From assembly GCF_000156375.1 (NCBI RefSeq), contig NZ_DS996359.1:415812-479811 (forward strand): 64,000 nt of DNA. Direction: 5' to 3'. The notes below the pieces were generated by a model. It had not been told where the DNA came from, searched no databases, and saw nothing but the letters and a program-made list of their open reading frames with translations. Both the position numbers and the translations under genes were made by a program. The DNA is from Desulfovibrio piger ATCC 29098 (GTDB taxonomy: Bacteria > Desulfobacterota > Desulfovibrionia > Desulfovibrionales > Desulfovibrionaceae). Below, piece after piece: positions 6,852 through 45,357 of this stretch (its first letter is position 1; each line of letters begins with the position of its first letter).

Positions 6852-7263
6852 AGCTTGTCTGTGGTCAGCAATTTCCATGCCGCATCAGGGGTATTTATGG
6901 AATATGCAATCATATTGATCGAATAGCGTTTGTTTGGTCGTCGGCGGCGGGCAGAGTGGCCTGGAACAGGGGAACCATGGTGCGTGATGGATGGCCTTGC
7001 CGGTGGGCCCCCTGACAGGCTGGGCTGCATAAGGCTGATAAATCAAGCTACTGGAGAGAGGGGCGGCTGGAGGCCTTTGAGAAAGGGAAGGTTAGACAAA
7101 TAATCACAAGCATCCCTTTTTTTACATAATGTAATATAAATTTTAATATAAAAATCAAAATTTTTTTATTTTTCTTACTATTTTTTAAACTAAAATAATG
7201 ATTATTATTCCTTTTTTCGTGAAAAAACGGGGTATTGTCCGACATAGCGAAGTTTTTCACATA
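6852..7263. other. Intergenic region, AT-rich in its second half
   Basis: No gene is visible. From about 7080 to 7250 the DNA is strongly AT-rich, with runs of A and T and a near-palindrome TTTTTTC-GT-GAAAAAA near 7211-7227. This is the expected place for activator and bending-protein sites serving the sigma-54 promoter just downstream. Read in full, the DNA between the EamA and permease genes spans 6765-7408. Confidence 0.5.
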
Positions 7264-7279
7264 TGGCACGCTTGTTGCT
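7264..7279 (+). promoter_or_regulatory. Sigma-54 (-24/-12) promoter of the APC permease gene
   Basis: TGGCACGCTTGTTGCT matches the sigma-54 consensus TGGCACG-R-N3-TTGCW at every fixed position except the R. GG and GC are separated by the required 10 bases. It lies about 130 bases upstream of the permease start codon. It implies that an AAA+ activator is needed; the nearest is the divergent regulator at 9920-11431. Confidence 0.8.
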
Positions 7280-7408
7280 GAGCAGGGAGGGACTATAGTT
7301 TTCGCCCGGAAGTTCGCCAAAGGGTGCAACGACCAGGCTTCATGTGCATGTATGGCAGCCATAACAAGCAATCCGCAGCGGTATCAAATTCATAACGGAG
7401 AAAATGGT

Positions 7409-8875
7409 ATGTCGGAACAGGTCAAGTTGGAAAAGTCCCTTTCGCCGTTGCAGGTGTGCGCACTGGCACTGGGCTCCATTGTCGGTTGGGGTTGCTTTGT
7501 GCTGCCCGGTGATATGTTCCTGCCCCAGGCCGGTCCTGTGGGTACCCTGCTTGGTTTCTTTGTCGGCGCCTGCCTGATCAGCTTCGTTGCCGTATGCCTC
7601 AGCTACATGGTCAAATACGCCCCTGTTGCTGGCGGTGCTTTTGCTTATGCGTATATCGGTTTTGGCCCTCATGCCGCTTTTGTGTGCGGCTGGGCGCTGG
7701 TCATCGGCTATCTTGCCATTGTTGCTATCGACATCGCAGCCCTCTCGGTCATTTTCCGCTTCCTCTTCCCCGGCGTGTTTGAGTTCGGAGAGCTCTATTC
7801 CATCGCCGGCTGGACCGTGTATTCCGGCGAAGTCATATTGATGACGGCCGGTACCCTCTTCTTCGGTTACATCAACTACCGCGGTATCGGCTTTGCCGGC
7901 GCCCTGCAGCTGATCCTGGCCTTCATGCTGACCTTCGGCATCCTGGCCCTGTTCGGCGGCGTGCTGACCCTGGATACCGCCAGCGTGGCCAACCTGAGCC
8001 CCGCCTTCTCCGACAAGCGCAGCATGCTGGCCTGCGTGCTGCTGGTCTTCGCCATCTCTCCCTTCCTGTTCGTGGGCTTCGATACCGTGCCCCAGGCTGC
8101 TGAAGAATTCGCCTTCGATCCTTCCCGTGCCCGCAACATCATGGTCGTCGCCATCTTCTGCGGCGTGCTCCTGTACGCCATGGTGATGCTCTCCGTGGGC
8201 ATGGCCGTGCCGTATCCTGAACTGCTGGCCAAGCTCGACGCCCAGCGCGCCACCGGCGGCGCCGCCTGGGGCACCGGTGAAGTGGCCACCATGGCCTTCG
8301 GCAAGTTCGGCTCCATCGTGCTGGCCGTGGCCGTGTTCGGCGCCGTGTGCACCGGTACCAACGGTTTCTTCATCGCCACCAGCCGCCTGCTGCTCAGCAT
8401 GTCCCGCAGCGGCATCCTGCCCGCCTGGTTCGGTGAGATCCATCCCAAGTACCGCACCCCCTACAAGGCCATCCTGTTCACCATCATCGTCGTGCTGCTG
8501 ACTCCCTTCGCCGGCCGCTCCGCCGTGGCCTGGACCGTGGACATGAGCTCCGTGGGTACCGGTATCGGCTACCTGTTCACCTGCCTGGCCGCCCGCCGCG
8601 TGATCATGGGCAGCGAAGGCGTGGACAAGAAGGGCCTCAAGCTGTTCTGCTGCGCCGTGGGCACCATCACCGCCGTCATGTGCATCCTGCTCCTGCTGGT
8701 GCCCGGTTCCCCCGCCCGCATCGGTACTGCCCCCTTCATCTGCCTGGCCGTGTGGGTCGTGCTGGGCTTCATCTTCTACTTCTCCAACAAGAAGCACTGG
8801 ATCTCCCTGCCTGAAGAAAAGGTCCGTGAGAACGTGCTGGGCCGCAAGGACATCGCGGTCTTCTTCAAGAAGTAA
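7409..8875 (+). CDS. APC-superfamily amino acid/amine permease
   Basis: A 488-residue inner-membrane transporter of the amino acid-polyamine-organocation superfamily with about 12 membrane spans. The first span carries ALGSIVGWGCFVLPG, the unwound-helix substrate motif of the family. PVAGGAFAYAYIGFG and PFLFVGFDTVPQAAEEF also fit it. ATG 7409 follows cggagaaaat; an upstream in-frame extension would start before the -24/-12 promoter and is rejected. Substrate is unknown: an amino acid, amine or amino-sulfonate are all possible. The sigma-54 promoter upstream ties it to the regulation of the GRE locus downstream. A hairpin with GCAA loop (8884-8903) and a terminator (8943-8972) follow. Later codons are strongly C-ending, a sign of high expression. 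Confidence 0.85.
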   Translation: MSEQVKLEKSLSPLQVCALALGSIVGWGCFVLPGDMFLPQAGPVGTLLGFFVGACLISFVAVCLSYMVKYAPVAGGAFAYAYIGFGPHAAFVCGWALVIGYLAIVAIDIAALSVIFRFLFPGVFEFGELYSIAGWTVYSGEVILMTAGTLFFGYINYRGIGFAGALQLILAFMLTFGILALFGGVLTLDTASVANLSPAFSDKRSMLACVLLVFAISPFLFVGFDTVPQAAEEFAFDPSRARNIMVVAIFCGVLLYAMVMLSVGMAVPYPELLAKLDAQRATGGAAWGTGEVATMAFGKFGSIVLAVAVFGAVCTGTNGFFIATSRLLLSMSRSGILPAWFGEIHPKYRTPYKAILFTIIVVLLTPFAGRSAVAWTVDMSSVGTGIGYLFTCLAARRVIMGSEGVDKKGLKLFCCAVGTITAVMCILLLLVPGSPARIGTAPFICLAVWVVLGFIFYFSNKKHWISLPEEKVRENVLGRKDIAVFFKK

Positions 8876-9919: not shown

Positions 9920-11431
9920 TCAGTCTTCGTTTTCGATGTGCAGGACCTTCATGCGGTAGTGCAGGCCCGCCGGGGTCAGCTCCATGATCCGGGCCGCCTT
10001 GGCCACGTTGCCGCCGGTCACGCGCAGCACGTTGCGGATGCAGCTGGACTCGTACTCGTGCAGGCAGGTCTTGATGGAGACGCTGTCGCCGCGCCGGATG
10101 CCGCGGTAGTCGAAGTAGTCCGGCGTCGTGCCCGCAGGGACCTGGAGCTGGGCCTCCGCATGCCGCATGACCGGCAGGGGCGGGCGCAGGTCGTCGTCCG
10201 CGGGCTGAAGGTTGCAGGCCTCGCGGAAGTGGCGCGGCAGGTTGTGGACGGTGATGACGTCGCTGCCGTCCAGCAGGGCCAGGCTGCCCTCGATGACGTG
10301 GGCCAGTTCCCGGATGTTGCCGGGCCAGGGGTAGCGGCGGAAGATGCCCATGACCTCGTCGTCCAGGGTGACGCCGGCGGTCTTCATGGCCAGTTCCGAG
10401 CGGTTTATGATATGCCGGACCAGCAGGGGGATGTCGTTCTGGCGCTTGCGCAGGGGCGGCACGGCGATGCCCACCACGGCCAGGCGATAGAAGAGGTCGC
10501 GGCGCAGCAGGCCCTGGTCCACGGCCCGCAGGGGATGCTCGTTGAGGATGCTGATGATGCGCACGTTGATGGGGATCTCCGTATGGGAGCCCAGACGGCG
10601 CACGCGCTTTTCCTGGATGACGCGCAACAGCTTGGCCTGCAGGCCAAGGGGCATGGAGTTGAGTTCGTCGAAGAGCAGGGTGCCGCAGTTGGCCTTTTCG
10701 AACAGGCCGGGCTTGTCCGGGGCGTCGGTGTAGGCCCCCTTGACGGTACCGAACAGGATGCCTTCCAGCAGGTTCTCGGGGATGGCGGCGCAGTTGACCG
10801 GGATGAACGGATGCCCGGCGCGGCTGCTGGCCGAGTGGATGGCCTGGGCGAACAGTTCCTTGCCGGTGCCGCTCTCGCCCCAGATCATGACCGGCGAGGA
10901 GCTGGTGGCCGCGGAGCGGGCCTCGTGGATGCATTCCTGCAGGGCCTCGTCCCGGCCCACGATGCTGGAGAAGGTATAGTAGTTGTAGGGCGCGTCCGCG
11001 TTGCAGGGCTTGAGGGGGCGGCGCGACTCCGAGACGTGGGCGGTGTTGCCCGTCCAGATGGTGAAGGCGATGACGCCGTCCTTGCGCCCGTGGTCGAACA
11101 GGGGAAAGAAGTCCGTCACCGTGCTGGCCAGGAAGTTGGTGGAGGTGGCGTACCAGTAGGCTTTTTTGAGCAGGGGCTTGCCGGTCTGGAGGCATTCTAT
11201 GGTGGGGATGACCTCCAGCTCGTGGGGGACGTAGAGGCTGGTGATGTGCTGTCCTTCCACGGGGATGCGGGTGAAACCGTCGGCACGGCGCTGGATGGGG
11301 TTCATGTACTCGCAGATGCCGTCGGCATCGACCACGGCCACACCGATGCACATATTGTCCCAGATGGCCCGGATCTGCGGCGTCAGTACCGAGGCCCGGT
11401 TGACGTTGTAGAACTGGCGGCTGTTGAACAT
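9920..11431 (-). CDS. Sigma-54-dependent activator (PAS-AAA+-Fis), RocR-like
   Basis: A 503-residue bacterial enhancer-binding protein. An N-terminal PAS-like sensor spans about residues 20-130 (IGVAVVDADGICEYMNPIQRR). The AAA+ domain spans about 155-390 with Walker A GESGTGKE and a Walker B strand TLLFDELNSMP. The C-terminus has a Fis-type helix-turn-helix (GGNVAKAARIMELTPAGLHYR). The GAFTGA loop that touches sigma-54 reads GAYTDA here (residues 232-237), so its second Gly is Asp. It is divergent from the GRE gene, whose -24/-12 promoter lies between them. It is therefore the likely activator of the GRE operon and perhaps of the APC and TSUP genes. The PAS ligand is unknown. Confidence 0.85.
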   Translation of the reverse strand: MFNSRQFYNVNRASVLTPQIRAIWDNMCIGVAVVDADGICEYMNPIQRRADGFTRIPVEGQHITSLYVPHELEVIPTIECLQTGKPLLKKAYWYATSTNFLASTVTDFFPLFDHGRKDGVIAFTIWTGNTAHVSESRRPLKPCNADAPYNYYTFSSIVGRDEALQECIHEARSAATSSSPVMIWGESGTGKELFAQAIHSASSRAGHPFIPVNCAAIPENLLEGILFGTVKGAYTDAPDKPGLFEKANCGTLLFDELNSMPLGLQAKLLRVIQEKRVRRLGSHTEIPINVRIISILNEHPLRAVDQGLLRRDLFYRLAVVGIAVPPLRKRQNDIPLLVRHIINRSELAMKTAGVTLDDEVMGIFRRYPWPGNIRELAHVIEGSLALLDGSDVITVHNLPRHFREACNLQPADDDLRPPLPVMRHAEAQLQVPAGTTPDYFDYRGIRRGDSVSIKTCLHEYESSCIRNVLRVTGGNVAKAARIMELTPAGLHYRMKVLHIENED

Positions 11432-11557: not shown

Positions 11558-11594
11558 AAAATGGCAATTTGTCCATTTTGGCACAGCCTATGCT
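11558..11594 (+). promoter_or_regulatory. Sigma-54 promoter and inverted repeat upstream of the first GRE
   Basis: TTGGCACAGCCTATGCT (11578-11594) keeps GG and GC 10 bases apart and matches most of the -24/-12 consensus. Directly upstream AAAATGG (11558-11564) and CCATTTT (11573-11579) form a perfect 7-bp inverted repeat touching the -24 element. This repeat is closer than usual for an enhancer site and may be an additional operator. The rest of the 244-base divergent region is AT-rich. Confidence 0.65.
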
Positions 11595-11675: not shown

Positions 11676-14120
11676 ATGACCGTACATCAGTTCGAAGACA
11701 ACGCCGCCAAGGGCGCCCAGGGTTACGCCATCAACTGGGACACCGCCGAAGCCCGCGTGAAAGACCTCAAGGCCTATCTCATGAACGCCCCTCAGGTTAT
11801 GGACTCCGAGCGGCTGCAGTTCCTGAACGAGGTGTATGAGGAGTTCCAGGGCGAACCCGTTTTCTACATCCGCGCCAAGCTGCTTGAGCGCGTGCTGACC
11901 AAGAAAAAGATCTTCCTGGACGGCAACCCCATCGTGGGCACCCTGACCGGTACCCGCGCCGGTGTGTACGCCTATCCTGAATGGAACGTGGCCTGGATCA
12001 AGGAAGAGATGCAGATGGCCAAGATGGCTTCTCTGGGCGAGATGAAGATCCCCCAGGAGACCTCCGAGCTGCTGGAAAAGACCTACAAGAAGTGGAAGGG
12101 CCGCACCTGCATCGACCTGAACAACAAGATGTTCAAGGACAAGTACGGCTTCAACCCCGCTCCGTACTCCAAGGCCGGCGTGTACTATGACAACGTCAGC
12201 GTGGCCAGCGGCTCCGGTATCGCCGACTACCCCCTGGCCCTGAACAAGGGCCTGCGCTGGGTCATCGACGACATCAAGAAGCGCCTGCTGGAATGCCCCA
12301 CCACCCTGGCCAACAAGGAAAAGCATGACCTGTACCGCGCCATGATCGTGGCCACGGAAGCCGTCATCGCCCACTCCCACCGCTACGCCGACCTGGCCGA
12401 AAAGACCGCCGAGACCGAGACCGATCCCAAGGCCAAGGCCGAACTGCTGGAGATCGCCGAGATCTGCCGCCGCGTGCCCGAATTCCCGGCCCGCAACTTC
12501 CGCGAAGCCATCCAGTCCTTCTGGTTCATCCATCTGGCCATCGAAGTGGAACAGATGGCCTGCGCCTGCTCCCCGGGCCGCTACGGCCAGTACATGTACC
12601 CCTTCTACAAGAAGGACATCGAAGAGGGCAATCTGACCCGCGAACAGGTGCTGACCCTGCTGAAGTTCCAGTGGATCAAGCATCTTGAGCTGGCCGAATA
12701 CCAGGGCGGCTCCTACGCCATGACCCTGTCCGGCCACACCGGCCAGAGCATCACCATCGGCGGCGTGGACGCCAACGGCAACGACGCCAGCACCGAGCTG
12801 GAAGAACTGCTGCTGGAGACCCAGATCCAGATGAAGAACATCCAGCCCACGCTGACCCTGCTCTACCATCCCAAGCTGAAGGAATCCTACATGCAGAAGG
12901 TGGTGGAATGCATCCGCGGCGGTTCCGGCCAGCCCCAGATCCTCAACAACAACGTGGTCATCCAGCGCAACCTGGCCCGCTTCTCCCAGTACGAAGGCGG
13001 CATCACCCTGGAAGACGCCCGCAACTGCGGCAACTACGGCTGCGTGTCCACCGGCATCTGCGGCAAGGGCAGCTTCATCACCCAGGAAGACCAGCCCTGC
13101 CTGGCCAAGATCGTGGAACTGATGCTCTACAACGGCAAGGACCCGCTGACCAAGAAGCAGCTGGGCATCGAGACCGGTGATCCGACCCAGTTCCAGAGCT
13201 TCGACGAAGTGTACGACGCCTACAAGAAGCAGCTGCGCCACATCTTCGGCATCTCCCGCAAGCACTCCGACCTGAGCCAGATGGCCCGCCTGCAGGTGGT
13301 GCCCAGCATCTTCCGCTCGGTCATGTACGACGGCTGCATCGAAAAGGGCATGTGCGAAGAAGCCGGCGGCACCCGTTATCCCCAGGTCAACCCCATCATG
13401 ACCGCTGGTATCGACGCCGCCAACTCCCTGCTGGCCATCAAGCACCTGGTGTTCGACACCAAGAAGATCACCATGGCCCAGCTGATGGAAGCCATCAAGG
13501 CCAACTTCGAAGGCTACGAAGACATCCGCAAGATGTGCTTCGAAGCTCCCAAGCACGGCAACGACTACCCCGAAGTGGAAGGCTTCGTGCAGCAGTACTA
13601 CCGTGACGTGGACGAGATCCACCACTCCGTGGGTCCGGACTGCTTCGGCCACCGTACGCCTCTGGACGCCTACTCGCTGTCCTACCACAACTACTTCGGC
13701 TCCCTCATGGGTGCCCTGCCCACGGGCCGCAAGGCCGGTGTGGCCCTGACCGACGGCAGCGTGTCCGCCATGCCCGGCACCGACCATGAAGGCATCACCG
13801 CCCTCATCAAGTCCGGCGCCGAAGCCATCGACACCGTGCGCTACGGCGCCAACCACTTCAACGTCAAGTTCGTGCCCTCCGCCCTGGAAGGTCCCAACGG
13901 TGCCCGCACGCTGATCTCGCTCATCAAGACCTACTGCGACTTCGGCGGCTCTCACATCCAGTTCAACTGCGTGAGCTCCGACACCCTGCGTGACGCCCAG
14001 AAGAACCCGCAGGACTACACCGACCTTGTGGTCCGCGTGGCCGGCTTCAGCGCCTACTTCACCCGTCTGGACAAGGGCGTGCAGAACGAGATCGTCAAGC
14101 GTACCGAGTACGCTTCCTAA
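11676..14120 (+). CDS. Glycyl radical enzyme of unknown substrate (CVS active-site variant)
   Basis: An 814-residue cytoplasmic glycyl radical enzyme. The C-terminal radical loop is RVAGFSAYF with the radical Gly at residue 790, 24 from the end as in the family. The thiyl Cys is Cys456 in GCVSTG. In choline lyase, hydroxyproline dehydratase, arylacetate decarboxylases and isethionate lyase the residue two after this Cys is Glu; here it is Ser458. It is not pyruvate formate-lyase, which has adjacent Cys-Cys. ATG 11676 follows aggagatcgtc. Codons are almost all C-ending, like por and pta, implying high expression. The activase and a selenoprotein follow; TSUP exporters flank the locus. Sulfonate lyase is one inferred possibility; decarboxylation or fumarate addition are others. 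Family certain, reaction unknown. Confidence 0.9.
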   Translation: MTVHQFEDNAAKGAQGYAINWDTAEARVKDLKAYLMNAPQVMDSERLQFLNEVYEEFQGEPVFYIRAKLLERVLTKKKIFLDGNPIVGTLTGTRAGVYAYPEWNVAWIKEEMQMAKMASLGEMKIPQETSELLEKTYKKWKGRTCIDLNNKMFKDKYGFNPAPYSKAGVYYDNVSVASGSGIADYPLALNKGLRWVIDDIKKRLLECPTTLANKEKHDLYRAMIVATEAVIAHSHRYADLAEKTAETETDPKAKAELLEIAEICRRVPEFPARNFREAIQSFWFIHLAIEVEQMACACSPGRYGQYMYPFYKKDIEEGNLTREQVLTLLKFQWIKHLELAEYQGGSYAMTLSGHTGQSITIGGVDANGNDASTELEELLLETQIQMKNIQPTLTLLYHPKLKESYMQKVVECIRGGSGQPQILNNNVVIQRNLARFSQYEGGITLEDARNCGNYGCVSTGICGKGSFITQEDQPCLAKIVELMLYNGKDPLTKKQLGIETGDPTQFQSFDEVYDAYKKQLRHIFGISRKHSDLSQMARLQVVPSIFRSVMYDGCIEKGMCEEAGGTRYPQVNPIMTAGIDAANSLLAIKHLVFDTKKITMAQLMEAIKANFEGYEDIRKMCFEAPKHGNDYPEVEGFVQQYYRDVDEIHHSVGPDCFGHRTPLDAYSLSYHNYFGSLMGALPTGRKAGVALTDGSVSAMPGTDHEGITALIKSGAEAIDTVRYGANHFNVKFVPSALEGPNGARTLISLIKTYCDFGGSHIQFNCVSSDTLRDAQKNPQDYTDLVVRVAGFSAYFTRLDKGVQNEIVKRTEYAS

Positions 14121-14153: not shown

Positions 14154-14181
14154 GGGACCGCGTCCGCAAGGGCGCGGTCCC
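14154..14181 (+). other. Intercistronic hairpin between GRE and activase
   Basis: GGGACCGCG and CGCGGTCCC form a 9-bp stem without a following T-run, 33 bases past the GRE stop and 28 before the activase start. It probably stabilises the GRE transcript end or reduces read-through, since an activase is needed in much smaller amounts than its enzyme. That role is inferred. Confidence 0.55.
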
Positions 14182-14208: not shown

Positions 14209-15105
14209 ATGAGCCAGGGAATGATCTACAATATCCAGAGGATGTCCGTGCAGGACGGTCCCGGCCTGCGGACCACGGTCTTTCTGAAAGGCTGTCCTCT
14301 GCGCTGCCTGTGGTGCAGCAATCCCGAATCGCAGCAGTTCACGCCGCAGATGCTGCTGTTCGACAATCTGTGCGTGAGCTGCGGCGCCTGCATGCAGGTC
14401 TGTCCCAACGGCGCCGTGGTGCCGCTGGAGAACGGCAAGATGGGCCGCGATACGGAAAAATGCACCCACTGCGGCGCCTGTACCGAGGTCTGTCCCAACA
14501 AGGCACGCGTCATGTCCGGCCGTATCATGACCGTGGAAGAAGTCATGGAAGTGGTCCGCAAGGACTGGCTCTTCTACGAGAACTCCGGCGGCGGCGTGAC
14601 CTTTGGCGGCGGCGAGCCCACGGCGGGCGGGCAGTTCTTCCTCGATCTGGTGCAGACCGCCCATGACGAGGGCCTGCACGTCACGGTGGATACCTGTGGC
14701 TTCTGCCCCGAGGACCGGTTTGACAAAACCATCGGCCTGGCCGATCTTTTTCTGTTCGACTGCAAGCACATGGACCCGGAACAGCACAAAAAGCTCACCG
14801 GGCAGGACAACGCCCTCATCCTGCGCAACCTGGAGGCCGCGCTCTCTTCGTCCACCGAAGTGCGCGTGCGCATGCCCCTGATGCCGGGCCTCAACGATTC
14901 CAACGAGAATCTGGCGGCCATGGCGGCCTTTTTGGGGCGTTTCGGCCGCAAGCAGGTGGAGATCATGCCCTGCCATGCCTTCGGCAAGAGCAAGTACGCC
15001 GCCCTGGGCAAGCCTTACCCCGATGTGCAGCAATATACCCCTGAAGGTCTCAAGGCCGCGGAAGAGCGCTTTGCCCGTCACGGTCTTGTCCTTGTCATCG
15101 TATAA
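14209..15105 (+). CDS. Glycyl radical enzyme activase (radical SAM)
   Basis: A 298-residue radical SAM enzyme that installs the glycyl radical. The SAM cluster motif is Cys29-x3-Cys33-x2-Cys36 (CPLRCLWC). Two ferredoxin-like 4Fe-4S motifs follow (CVSCGACMQVCP and CTHCGACTEVCP, about residues 63-95), which PFL activase lacks but most other GRE activases have. FGGGEPT matches the GGE SAM-binding strand. The reaction is reductive SAM cleavage and hydrogen abstraction from Gly790 of the GRE encoded upstream. ATG 14209 follows a strong gggggagga site. The next gene begins only 18 bases later, so it is in one operon with the HesB-like selenoprotein. Confidence 0.93.
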   Translation: MSQGMIYNIQRMSVQDGPGLRTTVFLKGCPLRCLWCSNPESQQFTPQMLLFDNLCVSCGACMQVCPNGAVVPLENGKMGRDTEKCTHCGACTEVCPNKARVMSGRIMTVEEVMEVVRKDWLFYENSGGGVTFGGGEPTAGGQFFLDLVQTAHDEGLHVTVDTCGFCPEDRFDKTIGLADLFLFDCKHMDPEQHKKLTGQDNALILRNLEAALSSSTEVRVRMPLMPGLNDSNENLAAMAAFLGRFGRKQVEIMPCHAFGKSKYAALGKPYPDVQQYTPEGLKAAEERFARHGLVLVIV

Positions 15106-15123
15106 CCCTTGATGGAGAAAACA

Positions 15124-15417
15124 ATGTTCACCGTTACTGTTGACGAGAGCATGCTGGAAAAGCTTCGCGGCATGCTGGAAGATGAAGACGAAGGTACTTG
15201 TGTGCGTCTGCGCGAATACAAGGTCGGTGGTGGCTGACATGCCAAGATCGTGCTCGGTCTGGGCATGGACGAATTTGATGAGGACGAAGACGTGCAGATC
15301 GACATCGACGGCGTTCCCTTCGCCGCGGAGAAGGATTTTCTGGAAAAGTACGGGACTGCCTTCACGCTGAGCTACGGCGAGAACAAGGAAGTGGTCCTGA
15401 CCGCCGACCAGGCCTAA
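15124..15417 (+). CDS. HesB/IscA-like selenoprotein with in-frame UGA
   Basis: A 97-residue frame from ATG 15124 (ribosome site ggag at 15114-15117) to TAA 15415-15417, interrupted only by TGA at 15235-15237, which I read as selenocysteine at position 38. Both sides are coding: CVRLREYKVGGG before and HAKIVLGLGMDEFDEDEDVQ after, a HesB/IscA-like pattern where position 38 normally carries a metal- or cluster-binding Cys. Cys26 is the other likely ligand. A bacterial SECIS hairpin follows the UGA (separate entry) and selB is in the window. HesB-like selenoproteins are known from bacterial surveys, as I recall. The role may be Fe-S or sulfur handling; the link to the GRE is inferred from the operon. 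Conventional gene callers would split or miss it. Confidence 0.88.
15235..15266 (+). promoter_or_regulatory. SECIS element and UGA selenocysteine codon
   Basis: TGA at 15235-15237 is followed 18 bases later by a GGUCU loop (15256-15260) on a 6-bp stem GUGCUC/GGGCAU (15250-15255 with 15261-15266, two G.U pairs). Both the loop sequence and the 18-base spacing equal those of the E. coli fdhF SECIS as I know it. An alternative lower pairing CATGCC/GGCATG (15238-15243 with 15262-15267) could compete. SelB bound here would decode the UGA. Confidence 0.85.
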
Positions 15418-15555
15418 TCTCCCGGGGATGTCCCCGGCACGGCAAAGGCTCCTGCCCTGGCGATGCCATCGCGAAGAGCTGCCGTAAGCGCCGGCTTCCC
15501 CGTCTGACGACGCCGTCCTGAAGCTGGCGACTGCCGCCATCAGGGCGAATACGTG

Positions 15556-15589
15556 GGGAGCCTGTCCACTGGACAGGCTCCCTTTTTTT
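15556..15589 (+). terminator. Strong terminator of the GRE operon
   Basis: GGGAGCCTGTCC and GGACAGGCTCCC form a perfect 12-bp stem with a 3-base loop followed by seven T. It lies about 140 bases past the selenoprotein stop and marks the end of the GRE-activase-selenoprotein unit. Confidence 0.92.
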
Positions 15590-16008: not shown

Positions 16009-16743
16009 ATGCCCGGGATGACGGAGATCTGTGTGTTCCTCGCCTGGATAGCGGGCGGTTTCGTGTCCGGCGTCAGCGGCATCGGCGGCGCCATGGTGGC
16101 CTTTCCTTTTCTGGCCATGCTCCTGCCGGTGCATGAGGCCATCGCCCTGACCTGCATCGTCAACATGGTCATGGACATCTGTCTGGCCAGCCTGCATTTC
16201 CGCTTCTGCCGCGTCAGCGCCTTGTGGCCCATGCTGCTGGCCTCGGTGCCCGGGTCCTTTGCCGGGCTCTACATCCTCCAGATCTGTTCCGGCCCCGTGC
16301 TGCAAGGCGCCGTGGGCCTGCTCCTGCTCTATTACGTCTACTGGCAGAAGACCTTCCGCGCCCGCGGCAGCATCGCCCATCCCCGGGCGCTGGGCGCCGT
16401 GGCCGGTTTCGGTTCCGGCCTGCTGGGCACGGCCATCGCCTTCGACGGCCCGCCCGTGGGGGCCTACGGCCTGTGCATGGGCTGGGAACCGCGCGTGCTG
16501 CTGGGCACGCTGGGCGTCTTCTTCGTGCTGCGCGCCACCGTGACCCTGGTGCTACAGGGCATGGCCGGTTTCTACACGCCCACGGTGCTCACCTGCGCCA
16601 TGTACGGCGCGCCCGGCGTCATCCTGGGCACCTGCATCGCCTTCCCCGTGGTCAAGCACATCTCCCAGCAGGCCTTCCGCAAGGTGCTGCTCTGCGTCAT
16701 CGCCGTGGCGGGCCTGGTCTGTCTGGTGCGGGCGCTGGGGTAG
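16009..16743 (+). CDS. TSUP (TauE/SafE) family exporter, copy 2
   Basis: A 244-residue, roughly eight-span membrane protein that matches the TSUP gene at 9092-9829 closely from end to end: the same GGFVSGVSGIGGAMVAFP start, SVPGSFAGLYILQICSG middle and GLCMGWEPRV segment. It has the good ribosome site ggaggggcgt. Family members export sulfite, sulfoacetate or similar anions; the substrate here is unknown. Its position just after the GRE operon, with its twin just before, suggests the two arose by duplication and that one or both serve the GRE pathway. The terminator at 15556-15589 means it is transcribed separately. Confidence 0.85.
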   Translation: MPGMTEICVFLAWIAGGFVSGVSGIGGAMVAFPFLAMLLPVHEAIALTCIVNMVMDICLASLHFRFCRVSALWPMLLASVPGSFAGLYILQICSGPVLQGAVGLLLLYYVYWQKTFRARGSIAHPRALGAVAGFGSGLLGTAIAFDGPPVGAYGLCMGWEPRVLLGTLGVFFVLRATVTLVLQGMAGFYTPTVLTCAMYGAPGVILGTCIAFPVVKHISQQAFRKVLLCVIAVAGLVCLVRALG

Positions 16744-16968: not shown

Positions 16969-18747
16969 ATGAATCCCGTCACCGACATCCTTGCCCGCGC
17001 CGTGGTCCCCGAGCATTCCGCGCCCTTCATGCAGGCCGTTTCCGGGGGCCGGGTGCTGACGGTGGATCATTTCGTCTTTTACGCCGCCGAAGACTGGCTC
17101 ATGGCCATCGCCTACCCCTTGCGGGACGGCGGCGAGTACAGCCACCAGCGTTTCGAGGCCGCCTTGTCCGGGGCCCTGCGCGAGACCGGGGCCACGGCCT
17201 GCTTTGCCGTTGGGCCCGACCTGCCGCCGCGTCTGGCGGACAGCGTGCTGGAGCGGGACGAGTTCTACACCCTTCCGGCCGATGCGCCCGTGCCGCCGCG
17301 TCTGCGCTCGCCCGTGCGCAAGGCCCGGGAACGCCTGCGCATCGACGAGACGCGCGAGTTCGGGCCGCAGCATCGCCGCCTGTGGGCCGAATTCATGGGC
17401 CGGGCCGTACTGCGGGCCAACGTGCGCGAGCTCTTTGCCCGCACGCCGCAGATGCTGGCCGCCGAAGGCGCCGACGTGCGCCTGCTCAACGCCTGGGACG
17501 GCGACCGCCTGGTGGCCTGTCTGGTGCTGGATTACAGCACGCCCGCCTTCGTCAGCTATATCGTGGGCGCCCGTTCGCGCAACCATCCCGTGCCCCATGC
17601 CGGGGACGCGCTCTTTGCCGTCATGCTGGAGAAGGCCCGCGCGGCGGGCTGCGACTTCGTCCAGCTGGGCCTGGGCGTCAACGAAGGCATCACCCGCTTC
17701 AAGCGCAAGTGGGGCGGAACGCCGCAGCTCTCCTACGTCATGGCCCAGTGGCAGGAGCGGCCGCGCGCCGACGTGCATAAGGTGGTGTTGGACGAGCTCA
17801 TGCAGGCCTTGGTGGAGCGCAGTGACGAGGGCCTTTCCAAGCGCCAGATACTGGACAGGCTGCCCGACCAGCGCCCCTTTGCCATGCTCTGGGAGCTGGA
17901 GAAGCAGGGCCGCCGCTCCTGGATCTGCGGCACGGCGCATTTCTTCTGCTATTCCTTTGCCGACTCGTTCCGCCGCCTGTTCCGCAAGGTGGATACCGTC
18001 ATCTTTGAAGGCCCGCTGGATGCCGAGAGCCTGGCGCAGGTGGAGGCCTGCGGCAAATCTCCCGATCCCGGGACCGTGCCGCTGGACAGCCTGATGACCG
18101 AGGCCGAGATCCGGCGGCTGGAGCGCGTGGTCTGCGGCGTGCGCGGGCCGGTGGCGCGCTTTCTGAACATGGAGTGGGAGGACGCGCCGGACGTGCGGGG
18201 GCGCCTGCATACCACCCGGCACTGGTACGCCTTCTTCTCCCTCTGGACGGCCTTCCTGGAGCGGCAGGGCTGGCGCGATTCCGTGGATCTGGAGGCCTGG
18301 CATCTGGCCCGCGACATGGGCAAGACCGTGCTGGGCATGGAGACCATGGAGGAGCAGCTCCATTCCCTGGAAGTGGTGCCCGTGCCGCGCGTGCTGGATT
18401 TCTTCCGTCACTGCGGCCAGTGGCGCTCCTACATGAAGCGCAATATCTACCATTACCTGCGCGGGGAGCTGGAACCCATGATGGGCACCAGCACGGAATT
18501 TCCCACGCGCACGCAGCAGGTCATCGACTTCCGCGACCAGCGTTTCCGCGAGCGCATGCGCCCTTTCATCGAAAAGGGCGGGGTCGCCGTCTTCGTGGGC
18601 GCGGCCCACATGCTGCGCCTGCGCCGCATGCTCACCGAGGACGGCTTCACGGTGCGGCAGGTGCGGCCCACCTGGATCCACAGGATGCGGGCCCGCCTGC
18701 GTGGCGAGGACGATCTTTACCGCATCCCCGCTGACGGGGATCGCTGA
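16969..18747 (+). CDS. GNAT acyltransferase fused to a TraB/TIKI-type domain
   Basis: A 592-residue two-domain protein. Residues 1-265 resemble a GNAT-type acyltransferase of the Acetyltransf_6/FemAB-like kind, ending in LGLGVNEGITRFKRKWGG. Residues 315-575 are a TraB/PrgY/GumN domain with both GxxH signatures: GTAH (His324) and GAAH (His547). A conserved Glu347 (IFEGPL) and Glu458 (GMETMEEQL) also fit the family. Eukaryotic TIKI proteins with these motifs are metal-dependent proteases; bacterial activity is largely unknown. There is no signal peptide, so the protein is cytoplasmic. It precedes a second GNAT-like gene with the same C-terminal motif and a radical SAM gene. The fusion suggests a peptide or amino-group substrate that is both acylated and cleaved; this is inference. 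Confidence 0.75.
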   Translation: MNPVTDILARAVVPEHSAPFMQAVSGGRVLTVDHFVFYAAEDWLMAIAYPLRDGGEYSHQRFEAALSGALRETGATACFAVGPDLPPRLADSVLERDEFYTLPADAPVPPRLRSPVRKARERLRIDETREFGPQHRRLWAEFMGRAVLRANVRELFARTPQMLAAEGADVRLLNAWDGDRLVACLVLDYSTPAFVSYIVGARSRNHPVPHAGDALFAVMLEKARAAGCDFVQLGLGVNEGITRFKRKWGGTPQLSYVMAQWQERPRADVHKVVLDELMQALVERSDEGLSKRQILDRLPDQRPFAMLWELEKQGRRSWICGTAHFFCYSFADSFRRLFRKVDTVIFEGPLDAESLAQVEACGKSPDPGTVPLDSLMTEAEIRRLERVVCGVRGPVARFLNMEWEDAPDVRGRLHTTRHWYAFFSLWTAFLERQGWRDSVDLEAWHLARDMGKTVLGMETMEEQLHSLEVVPVPRVLDFFRHCGQWRSYMKRNIYHYLRGELEPMMGTSTEFPTRTQQVIDFRDQRFRERMRPFIEKGGVAVFVGAAHMLRLRRMLTEDGFTVRQVRPTWIHRMRARLRGEDDLYRIPADGDR

Positions 18748-42940: not shown

Positions 42941-44884
42941 CTAACGGCCCCGGTACTGCCGGGCGTCTCCCACCCGGACGGTGATCTTTTCCCTGTCCAT
43001 GAACTCCAGCAGCGCGATGAGGTACTTGCGCGAGAGGCCCAGGATCTCCTTGAGGCCGCCCACGTCCAGATCCTCGTGGTCGCCGAACCACTGGCGCACC
43101 TTGTCCAGGATCTCTTCCACGGCCTCGTTGCTGTAGTACAGGCCGTCCTTGACGCGCACCAGCTTCTTCTGCTCGCAGAGCAGGCGCAGGACGGGCGCCG
43201 CCTCCTTGCTGGTCACGCCCAGTTCCTCAAGCACGTCCTTGAGATTGGGCGGGGTCAGGCCCGCACTGACATGGGCCTCCAGCAGCTTGCGGCTCAGTCC
43301 CTCCTGGTCGGAAGCCAGCGTGACCTTGTGGCTGGCCAGGCGCAGGCCGTCGCCTTCGGCCACCAGCAGGCCCTTTTTCTGGGCCGCTTCCAGCACGCGG
43401 GCCACCAGACGCTGGGGCAGCTTGTCGCCCCAGCCGGCGCACAGGGCACCGCTGGGCAGCGAGGGCTTGAGCGGGTTCTTGGCGTGCAGGGCGGCGGCCC
43501 TGTCCAGACAGGCGCGGATCAGGGCTTCGAAATGCAGGCTGGCGATCCACATGCGGCCTTCCTTGTGCCAGCAGATGGCCTCGCCCTGGGAAGAAAGCTG
43601 GACCAGCTGCTTTTGCAGGGCCGCGGCGTTCTGGCCGGTGAGGACCTGCAGCTGGCTGTGGCTGGCGCCCGCGCTGCCACTAAGGCTCAGGGCCGCCCTG
43701 GTGAGGTCGAGGCCGGAATGGGCCGTGATGTATTCGGGGGCGGCCAGTTCGGGCAGACGGGCCAGCAGATCGAGCTTGTTCTGGAAATCCGGGTCCTTGC
43801 GGCGCAGCAGGGGCGGCAGGGGGCTGACGATGGTGCCGCCGGCCACAGTGCGCAGGGGCGAATAGGCGCGCAGCACGCAATGGTCGCCGAAGACCCCCAC
43901 CATATCATGGGAGAAGCGCAGCTCGGCCAGGCAGGAATCGCCGGGGGCCAGGCGGTCACGGTCGAAGAAGACCACCCGGGCCGCGCATTCCTGCGTGGCG
44001 TGGTGGAAGTGGACCTCGGTGCGCTGGCGCAGGGGGCGCGGCGCGGACTTGAGGCACTGCAGGCGCACCAGCCAGCGGCGGGAGGAGAAAAGCGTGTCGG
44101 GACGGCACAGGGTGTTGCCGCGATGGATGTCCGTCACTTCCAGGCCCTGGACGTTGACGGCGCAGCGTTCGCCGGCGCGGACCATCTCCACGCTGCTGCC
44201 GTGGCGCTGCAGGCTGCGGGCGCGGGTGGGCAGGGCGCCGGGCATGAAGCAGAGTTCGTCCCCTTCGCTGACCGCGCCGGAGATGACCGTGCCCGTGATG
44301 ACCGTGCCATGCCCCTTGAGGGTGAACACGCGGTCCACCGGCAGGCGGAAGACATCGGAGCCGTGCCGGGGCGGCAGGCTGCTGGCGCAGGCCAGGATGT
44401 GTTCGCGCAGGGCCGGGATGCCCTGGCCCGTGCTGGACGAGACGGGGAAGATGGGGGCGCCTTCCAGGAAGGTGCCCTGCAGGAAGGCGCGCACGTCTTC
44501 CTGGACCAGCTCCAGCCAGTCCGCGTCCACCATGTCCACCTTGGTCAGGGCCACGAAACCGTGCCGGATGCCCAGCAGGGAGCAGATCTCCAGATGTTCG
44601 CGGGTCTGGGGCATGACGCCTTCGTCGGCGGCGATGACCAGCATGACGAAGTCCACACCGGCGGCACCGGCCACCATGTTTTTGACGAAACGTTCATGGC
44701 CGGGCACGTCCACGATGCCCAGGCGCTCGCCGCCCGGCATGGGGACCCAGGCGAAGCCCAGTTCGATGGTGATGCCGCGCCGCTTCTCTTCTTCCAGACG
44801 GTCACAGTCGATGCCCGTCAGCGCGCGGACCAAAGATGTCTTGCCGTGGTCGATGTGACCGGCGGTACCCAGGATCAGAGCCAT
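42941..44884 (-). CDS. selB: Selenocysteine-specific elongation factor
   Basis: A 647-residue SelB, the GTPase that carries Sec-tRNA to the ribosome at UGA codons with a SECIS hairpin. The GTPase motifs are [10 protein letters not shown] (G1), DVPGHERF (G3) and TKVD (G4). Then come beta-barrel domains and C-terminal winged helices that bind the SECIS (residues from about 380 on). It starts [14 protein letters not shown] at 44884. A stem (GGGACAGG with its complement) overlaps and follows its stop. No selA, selD or selC is in the window. The HesB-like selenoprotein at 15124 shows that the system has a client nearby. Confidence 0.94.
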
Positions 44885-45357
44885 TCTACCCCCAGAAAAA
44901 ACACAGGCGCCCCGCCGGAAACGCCTTGCGGCGGCCCGGTGAACGGGGGCTGTCCCGTGTGCGGAACTGGTTTTCAGTGTACGCCAGAGAGCGGGGCTTT
45001 GCAAACGGCTGCGGCGGACGACCGGAGAAGTTTCATGGCTCCAGCGCTCTGGTGAAAAATATCACAATGGTGGCCGGGTCGTGATGCCGCTCAAAAATAA
45101 TCTTTAAATCCAGACTATTATAACCGGCGTTGAGCCCAGGCCCTGTTTGCCGAAAGGTGCATCCTGCCGGCAAACAAATACAAGAAAAAAATAAGGGGAA
45201 TGTCCGAAGGGCCCTGGCCGGGGCAGGAAGGGCAGCACCGCGAGGGCCGGGAACGGGAGAAAAGTTTTTTTGCCGCGCGTCACGTACGGTAAAGCCTTTT
45301 GTTCACAAGACAGCATGGCTCGCGGGGGCACGTCGTGGCGCCCCCGCGGGCATCCTT
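44885..45357. other. Intergenic region between ispH and selB
   Basis: About 470 bases. A stem with CGCGGGGGC and its complement (45317-45344) lies just past the ispH stop and probably ends its transcript. The remainder presumably carries the selB promoter. A short AT-rich part (45100-45195) is visible but no gene. Confidence 0.5.

Follow-up and report, generated by a model that had tools for sequence, protein, structure and literature searches.

An ErpA-related selenoprotein gene accompanies a clade of glycyl radical enzymes without the eliminase motif in Desulfovibrio and relatives

The analyzed DNA—a stretch of 64,000 nucleotides from Desulfovibrio piger ATCC 29098, termed the window throughout—carries on its plus strand a glycyl radical enzyme (GRE), a type of radical enzyme sensitive to oxygen, at positions 11676–14120. 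This protein of 814 residues bears Cys456-Val-Ser and Gly790, while the CXE motif of GRE eliminases is absent. It is followed by a GRE-activating radical SAM enzyme of 298 residues (14209–15105, plus strand), which scores 365 bits against TIGR02494 (cut-off 174) and has ferredoxin-type Fe–S motifs. Merely 18 bases separate the end of this activase from a small gene on the same strand (15124–15417), whose predicted product is an ErpA-related protein of 97 residues with a selenocysteine (Sec) at codon 38. Its ribosome binding site, GGAG, lies at 15114–15117, 6 nt 5′ of the ATG, and a terminator-like hairpin of 13 pairs with a T tail is found 3′ of the gene at 15555–15583 (plus strand).

Several neighboring genes recur at related GRE loci in other genomes, which are referred to here as types A to D. 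Downstream of the selenoprotein gene, a TauE/SafE-family transporter is encoded at 16009–16743 (plus strand); relatives of it are found at 26 of 36 type-A loci and at 0 of 26 other loci of the same GRE clade. An amino-acid-permease-like gene of the APC type (7235–8875, plus strand) remains below NCBIfam cut-offs, with a Pfam match in a relative at locus L059, and shows a similar distribution (19/36 type-A loci vs. 0/26 others). A divergent sigma-54-type regulator (9920–11431, minus strand) belongs to an ORF cluster present in 35/36 type-A loci. Upstream of the GRE, a search with the −24/−12 consensus used for sigma-54 yields a promoter-like site, TGGCACAGCCTATGCT, at 11579–11594 (plus strand). 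The evidence for it is weak—the window holds two such sites where 0.54 are expected, and 12 of 100 shuffles reach two. Between the GRE and the activase lies a GC-rich inverted repeat without a T run (GGGACCGCG/CGCGGTCCC, 14154–14181), which may set the relative amounts of the two proteins. Further downstream, at 16969–18747, a GNAT-like acetyltransferase domain is fused to a TraB/PrgY/gumN domain in a protein of 592 residues. Two other genes are found at related loci: DUF4125, of unknown function (e.g., L053:15117–15716), beside the GRE at 19/36 type-A and 7/26 other loci, and a gene with a C-GCAxxG-C-C motif (L053:8386–8979), which lies near 12/36 type-A loci—at several of them between the activase and the selenoprotein gene—and whose family bears the NCBI name “(seleno)protein”. 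The window itself ends on the start of a second GRE–activase–ErpA-like locus of another type (L087; G000:C38:479775–482171 onward), and just the first 37 bases of its GRE match fall inside (63964 to beyond the end).

The frame at 15124–15417 runs from ATG to TAA and is interrupted by a lone TGA at 15235–15237, which is codon 38; gene finders that stop at UGA miss this gene. An earlier note on this DNA had claimed this frame with its single TGA, its 18-base distance to the activase, a SECIS hairpin behind the UGA, and a selB gene in the window, and all four hold. Coding constraint beyond the UGA is probed by setting Sec copies of 96 aligned codons each against the window copy. In these 24 comparisons, the differences after the UGA are mostly third-position ones (247, 227, and 658 at codon positions 1, 2, and 3), and 401 synonymous codon changes stand beside 403 non-synonymous ones.

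A profile search with NF033940, reading through every stop in whole genomes, gave matches over the cut-off in 52 of 288 family genomes and, at the level of the genus, in 17 of 79. The 57 neighborhoods taken at first cover these 52 genomes and another two whose matches are weaker; 12 further ones were added. For the count at codon 38, a score floor of 35 bits was applied and the residue was placed by a motif rule, whereby three copies without a recognizable motif (one each in G052, G270, and G083) were dropped. The window and its relatives thereby provide 43 distinct copies with UGA, 34 with Cys, and 5 with another residue, and UGA and non-UGA copies adjoin in 22 loci. Cys or UGA at this codon in other species is what the earlier note had named as support for its call, and the homologues pass that test. 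Nor does the sequence comparison show what it had named as refutation: some over-cut-off matches contain a single TGA and the others no stop at all, with TAA and TAG absent throughout, and the sole candidate seen for a separate start after the UGA, Met48, is Ile or Thr in several homologues. At the second GRE locus of the window genome, the ErpA-like gene carries Arg (CGT) at the Sec place; hence, Sec or Cys is not indispensable everywhere.

The SECIS hairpin is located at 15249–15267 (plus strand), 11 nt after the UGA, and consists of a seven-pair stem (15249–15255/15261–15267) around the loop GGUCU (15256–15260). In the window copy, the 46 nt from the UGA fold with −18.2 kcal/mol (z −3.55), and longer stretches are weaker (z −2.36 for 56 nt and −1.44 for 72 nt). 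An outer hairpin, CAUGCC/GGCAUG, is the best fold when the window is considered alone, yet it is not the conserved stem; what homologues conserve is the inner one. All six inner pairs are formed by 40 of 43 distinct UGA copies, with compensatory changes, whereas merely 5 of 34 Cys copies form them; within type A, the figures are 31/31 and 2/17. The hairpin is therefore kept where UGA must give Sec and mostly lost elsewhere. Across 42 UGA copies, 94.2% of the stem cells are paired, against at most 42.5% for stems slid by 1 to 3 columns, and 17 cells show two-sided changes where shuffles average 3.9. A weaker covariation measure—pairs with two-sided changes—gives four, which 26 of 500 shuffles reach, and the outermost pair is broken in 13/42 copies.

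The machinery for Sec insertion is complete. Within the window, selB, the selenocysteine-specific elongation factor, lies at 42941–45004 on the minus strand (TIGR00475, 345 bits vs. a cut-off of 242), the match spanning profile positions 2–345 of 581. Elsewhere in the genome are tRNA-Sec (85 bits, with a second match of 49 bits at a cut-off of 47), selA (584 bits), and selD (309 bits), the last of which has one UGA itself. Over the sampled genomes, selB exceeds its cut-off in 46 of 47 with UGA copies compared with 2 of 8 without (Fisher p 6.5e-6); the one exception, G269, is an assembly of 220 contigs. The exchange of UGA and Cys, the covarying SECIS, and the complete machinery show, at the level of comparative genomics, that 15124–15417 encodes a true selenoprotein. 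That the UGA is a real stop, or that the gene has decayed and what remains is chance, can practically be ruled out on these grounds and on the third-position bias behind the UGA, even though the Sec/Cys is lost at the second locus of this genome and an Rfam search of the window gave no match to a known RNA at gathering scores.

The protein is matched over its full length by NF033940 (ErpA-related iron–sulfur cluster insertion protein, ErpA_rel) with 134.4 bits at a cut-off of 65. It remains below the cut-off of NF038090 (21.7 vs. 85) and is not listed by TIGR01911 at E values up to 0.01. The classic HesB-like selenoprotein family that these two models describe is ruled out by score and by motif, as the window protein reads UHAK at its Sec and lacks UxGP. 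An AlphaFold2 model (pLDDT 89.5, from 10 sequences) matches SufA and IscA (PDB 1s98; TM 0.72, E 5e-5), and Sec38 aligns with the Cys in the GGGC loop of HI1723 (PDB 2apn). Of the earlier reading as a HesB/IscA-like protein with position 38 at the metal-ligand place, the IscA-like character and the place of Sec38 stand, and the assignment is to be corrected from the classic HesB-like models to NF033940. A-type carriers use a C-terminal CxC together with their first Cys as ligands. In the window protein, Cys26 and Sec38 are the only Cys or Sec residues, and no C-terminal CxC is present in any of 85 copies of at least 60 bits, as judged from the aligned stretch after the Sec/Cys place only; in that stretch, 4/85 copies bear a Cys or Sec more than four residues past this place. 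The NCBI name—iron–sulfur cluster insertion—hence exceeds what the residues allow.

A search of the 288 family genomes for the GRE delineates a clade: among the matches listed, its members are at least 49% identical and are followed by a gap down to about 36%, inside which a few fragments or intermediates fall. At a threshold of at least 760 bits, the clade comprises 63 loci (62 in the family plus G301). The residue at C+2 of the active site is Ser in 36 of these, Gly in 21, Ala in 5, and Thr in 1—and Glu in none—so that 27/63 loci replace the Ser of C-x-S by Gly, Ala, or Thr. In five alignments, TutD (benzylsuccinate synthase) and MasD show Cys-Met-Ser at the active site, and HypD and HplG show Glu at C+2. 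The missing CXE is not special to fumarate-adding enzymes, since a hydroxyphenylacetate decarboxylase entry (7e7l) has Cys-Val-Leu. Over its length, the window GRE scores 420 bits with glycerol dehydratase, 419 with HypD, 350 with IslA, and 311 with TutD; against 8iof, deposited as a benzylsuccinate synthase alpha subunit, it scores 396 bits, the motif of this entry being unseen. As it is nearer to glycerol dehydratase and HypD in full length, the window GRE is not filed as fumarate-adding. Isethionate sulfite-lyase (IslA), a function raised by the TauE gene, is likewise not favored, given the lower score and the missing CXE. Four invariant Cys residues of the GRE were considered as a metal site and set aside, three of them having an aligned Cys in at least one other GRE. 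A structure prediction of the GRE gave an unusable model (pLDDT 41), and hence no complex between GRE and small protein could be judged. Lacking the eliminase motif, this clade probably catalyzes an unknown radical reaction in Desulfovibrio and relatives.

The ErpA-like gene and this clade are found together with few exceptions. For 57 of the 63 clade GREs, an ErpA-like gene lies less than 2.2 kb downstream on the same strand. Of the six loci without a partner gene, four are truncated at a contig end. The other two, G122 and the second GRE in G123, are clade members with no ErpA-like gene nearby, although the stretch seen for G123 ended 2.2 kb downstream, and the only NF033940 match of that genome adjoins its other GRE. 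In the opposite direction, 90 of 96 ErpA-like copies above 15 bits have a clade GRE, or its contig-end fragment, no farther than 2.3 kb away. Among the six unpaired copies, those in G047 and G048 sit on contigs that measure 6.6 and 3.7 kb, and the G190 copy is close to a contig start; the G106 copy is 8.4 kb from a clade GRE and beside a GRE of another clade. The remaining two are additional copies, a second one in G088 and a further one in G270, the latter directly after an activase. The nine loci with a taxonomic record are from Desulfovibrio, Pseudodesulfovibrio, and unclassified Desulfovibrionaceae. The counts are not independent, because most loci come from one bacterial family.

Gene order varies with type. 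Most type-A loci are arranged as GRE–activase–ErpA-like gene, and in type D, GRE and activase flank the ErpA-like gene where it is present. Type B and the majority of type C have it at most about 130 bases behind the GRE, with the activase distant, on the opposite strand, or unseen—which makes the GRE rather than the activase look like the partner. The distances among GREs and among ErpA-like proteins are correlated (Mantel r 0.95, n 57; reached by 0 of 999 permutations). Four genomes (G053, G083, G269, and G270) bear two GRE types each, together with two matching ErpA-like types; these are stronger evidence than the Mantel figure, as shared ancestry inflates such figures. By this comparison, the ErpA-like gene appears as a near-constant, type-matched genomic partner of the GRE clade without CXE. 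The earlier note had placed a selenoprotein in a GRE operon. Its gene does belong to a GRE–activase run, and the claim is refined to a recurrent pairing with one GRE clade, beyond one operon. The same note knew of no such link in the literature; our search, confined to open-licence papers in PubMed Central, likewise yielded none that appears to tie GREs to HesB-, IscA-, or ErpA-like selenoproteins. What seems new is this tie of an ErpA-related selenoprotein to one GRE clade, the NCBIfam family and IscA-like selenoproteins as such being known.

Outside the family, the picture is less uniform. NF033940 exceeds its cut-off in 5 of 395 genomes of a phylum sample, with G301 as the only one outside the genus. 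G368 and G288 likewise have GREs with Cys-Val-Ser, and near each of them lies a HesB/ErpA-like gene interrupted by an in-frame UGA. In G368, whose assembly shows 8% contamination, this gene follows the GRE by about 30 bases; in G288, it adjoins the activase on the strand opposite to the GRE, at a distance of 3.9 kb from the latter. Behind these two UGAs, no significant SECIS fold was obtained (z 0.03 and −0.31), the stretch taken for G288 having begun a few bases before its UGA; a Sec reading of these genes is hence unsupported by SECIS. The two genes (L160:8798–9088 and L161:12838–13050), from two other families of the phylum, are nearest to NF038090 and below every cut-off. For GREs that are 38–45% identical (G493, G514, G660, G420, and G291), no such gene turned up in the DNA seen around them, several of the stretches being short; their motif is Cys-x-Gln or Cys-x-Glu where the pattern found it. 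A second GRE of G288 (41% identical) lacks CXE, being read by the pattern as Cys-Ala-Leu, and has no ErpA-like gene in the stretch seen, which disfavors a strict rule linking the absence of CXE to an ErpA-like gene. As a control, 15 weak HesB-like matches outside the family were drawn from the phylum sample (L111 to L125; 11 with UGA). Neither a GRE nor an activase was found near 14 of these, which were taken with about 6 kb on each side where the contig allowed; the fifteenth is the G288 gene near the Cys-Val-Ser GRE. Only L112, L113, and L121 were scanned against the models, two of which belong to the 14 GRE-free loci and exceed the NF038090 cut-off.

The near-universal adjacency within the clade points to a so far undescribed partner that these GREs may need. 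We propose that the selenoprotein serves a non-eliminase GRE as its dedicated accessory partner and assign this reading a probability of roughly 0.5; the physical partnership and its need for activity are inferred, and there are no interaction data. The small selenoprotein would hereby serve the GRE itself rather than act as a general Fe–S carrier. As each chain has one conserved Sec/Cys, a homodimer or a Sec/Cys heterodimer is probable, in which the paired residues might hold iron or an Fe–S cluster or, alternatively, join in radical or redox control. As an outcome, the GRE could be activated or would keep its radical. From the TauE-type exporter and the permease found at many type-A loci, one may suspect that the GRE acts on a small compound that contains sulfur or resembles an amino acid.

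Among the alternatives, a dedicated A-type carrier that delivers Fe–S clusters to the GRE activase is the first to be weighed, and we regard it as unlikely. It would agree with the predicted match to IscA 1s98 and SufA, with the name of NF033940, and with the ferredoxin-type motifs of the window activase; moreover, at most one gene separates the ErpA-like gene from the activase in type-A and type-D loci, and the further G270 copy sits directly 3′ of an activase. Yet the C-terminal CxC of such carriers is missing from the aligned stretch of all 85 copies, and the constant neighbor in types B and C is the GRE, not the activase. The distant Cys-x-Gln or Cys-x-Glu GREs also lack such a gene in the stretches seen, several of them with an activase in view.

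A second possibility takes the selenol as a protector or repair agent: once oxygen or sulfur oxidants have oxidized the GRE or the activase, it would reduce or quench them. In most selenoproteins, Sec has a redox function, and the putative redox-active C-GCAxxG-C-C gene is present near 12/36 type-A loci. Against this, the window protein has no CxxU or UxxC redox motif, its predicted fold is IscA-like rather than thioredoxin-like, and no such gene stands beside the distant GREs examined, which should need equal protection. We therefore consider this role quite unlikely. Finally, the Sec could handle a sulfur product of the GRE by accepting or relaying sulfite, or some other sulfur species, for export by TauE. 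The Desulfovibrio group consists of sulfur-respiring bacteria, which all nine recorded loci belong to, and 26/36 type-A loci encode a TauE relative. The other 26 clade loci do without TauE, although most of them have the ErpA-like gene, and the sulfite-releasing IslA uses a CXE according to the portion of PMC8473560 available to us, a motif absent here; this makes a role in sulfur handling very unlikely.

Returning to the accessory partner of the GRE, a wider and more tentative idea is that Desulfovibrionaceae possess a new sort of GRE complex. Such non-eliminases would depend for their function on small subunits with the IscA fold—in many cases one chain with Sec and one with Cys—and the Sec would reside at a metal site or take part in radical transfer. 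We know of no earlier role of selenium in glycyl radical chemistry, and these complexes, if true, would be the first. Irrespective of this, the near-constant genomic partner gives the selenoprotein subfamily a testable function, and a GRE clade without the eliminase motif is marked out. The pairing also suggests that a GRE pathway can be held back by a shortage of selenium.

Compared with known systems, the window protein is a member of NF033940 by score, yet without a C-terminal CxC, and the name of that family speaks of Fe–S insertion and mentions neither GREs nor selenocysteine. With IscA, SufA, and ErpA, the A-type carriers, it shares the predicted fold, whereas their second and third Cys ligands are missing. 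The HesB-like selenoproteins of TIGR01911 and NF038090 are likewise small and IscA-like and carry Sec in the corresponding glycine-rich loop, but most examples seen have UxGP, and several end on a GGGGC-like tail. IscA-like selenoproteins have been described before (PMC1794560, PMC13188914), and PMC1914089 lists a UGA gene of the HesB family from D. vulgaris, insofar as the accessible parts of these papers convey.

On the side of the enzyme, the GRE eliminases HypD, CutC, IslA, and HpsG have the GRE family, the glycyl radical motif, and the activase type in common with the window GRE, while their CXE is absent from all 63 clade loci; this motif is described as conserved in GRE eliminases in the part of PMC8473560 that could be consulted. 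Benzylsuccinate synthase (BSS) and its relatives provide an analogy in organization. Their active site is C-x-S as in the window GRE (CVS), and small proteins—often two—are encoded in the GRE operon, as in the clade loci, even though HypD gives the window GRE a higher score than TutD does. The BSS small subunits are not known to be related in fold to the window protein, and the small protein encoded in this operon is IscA-like. In BSS, the small Fe4S4 subunits appear necessary for activity, as stated in the available extract of PMC13298812. The ErpA-related selenoprotein may play a role like that of these small Fe–S subunits, without known kinship to them, beside a catalytic subunit that is of the C-x-S kind in BSS as well.
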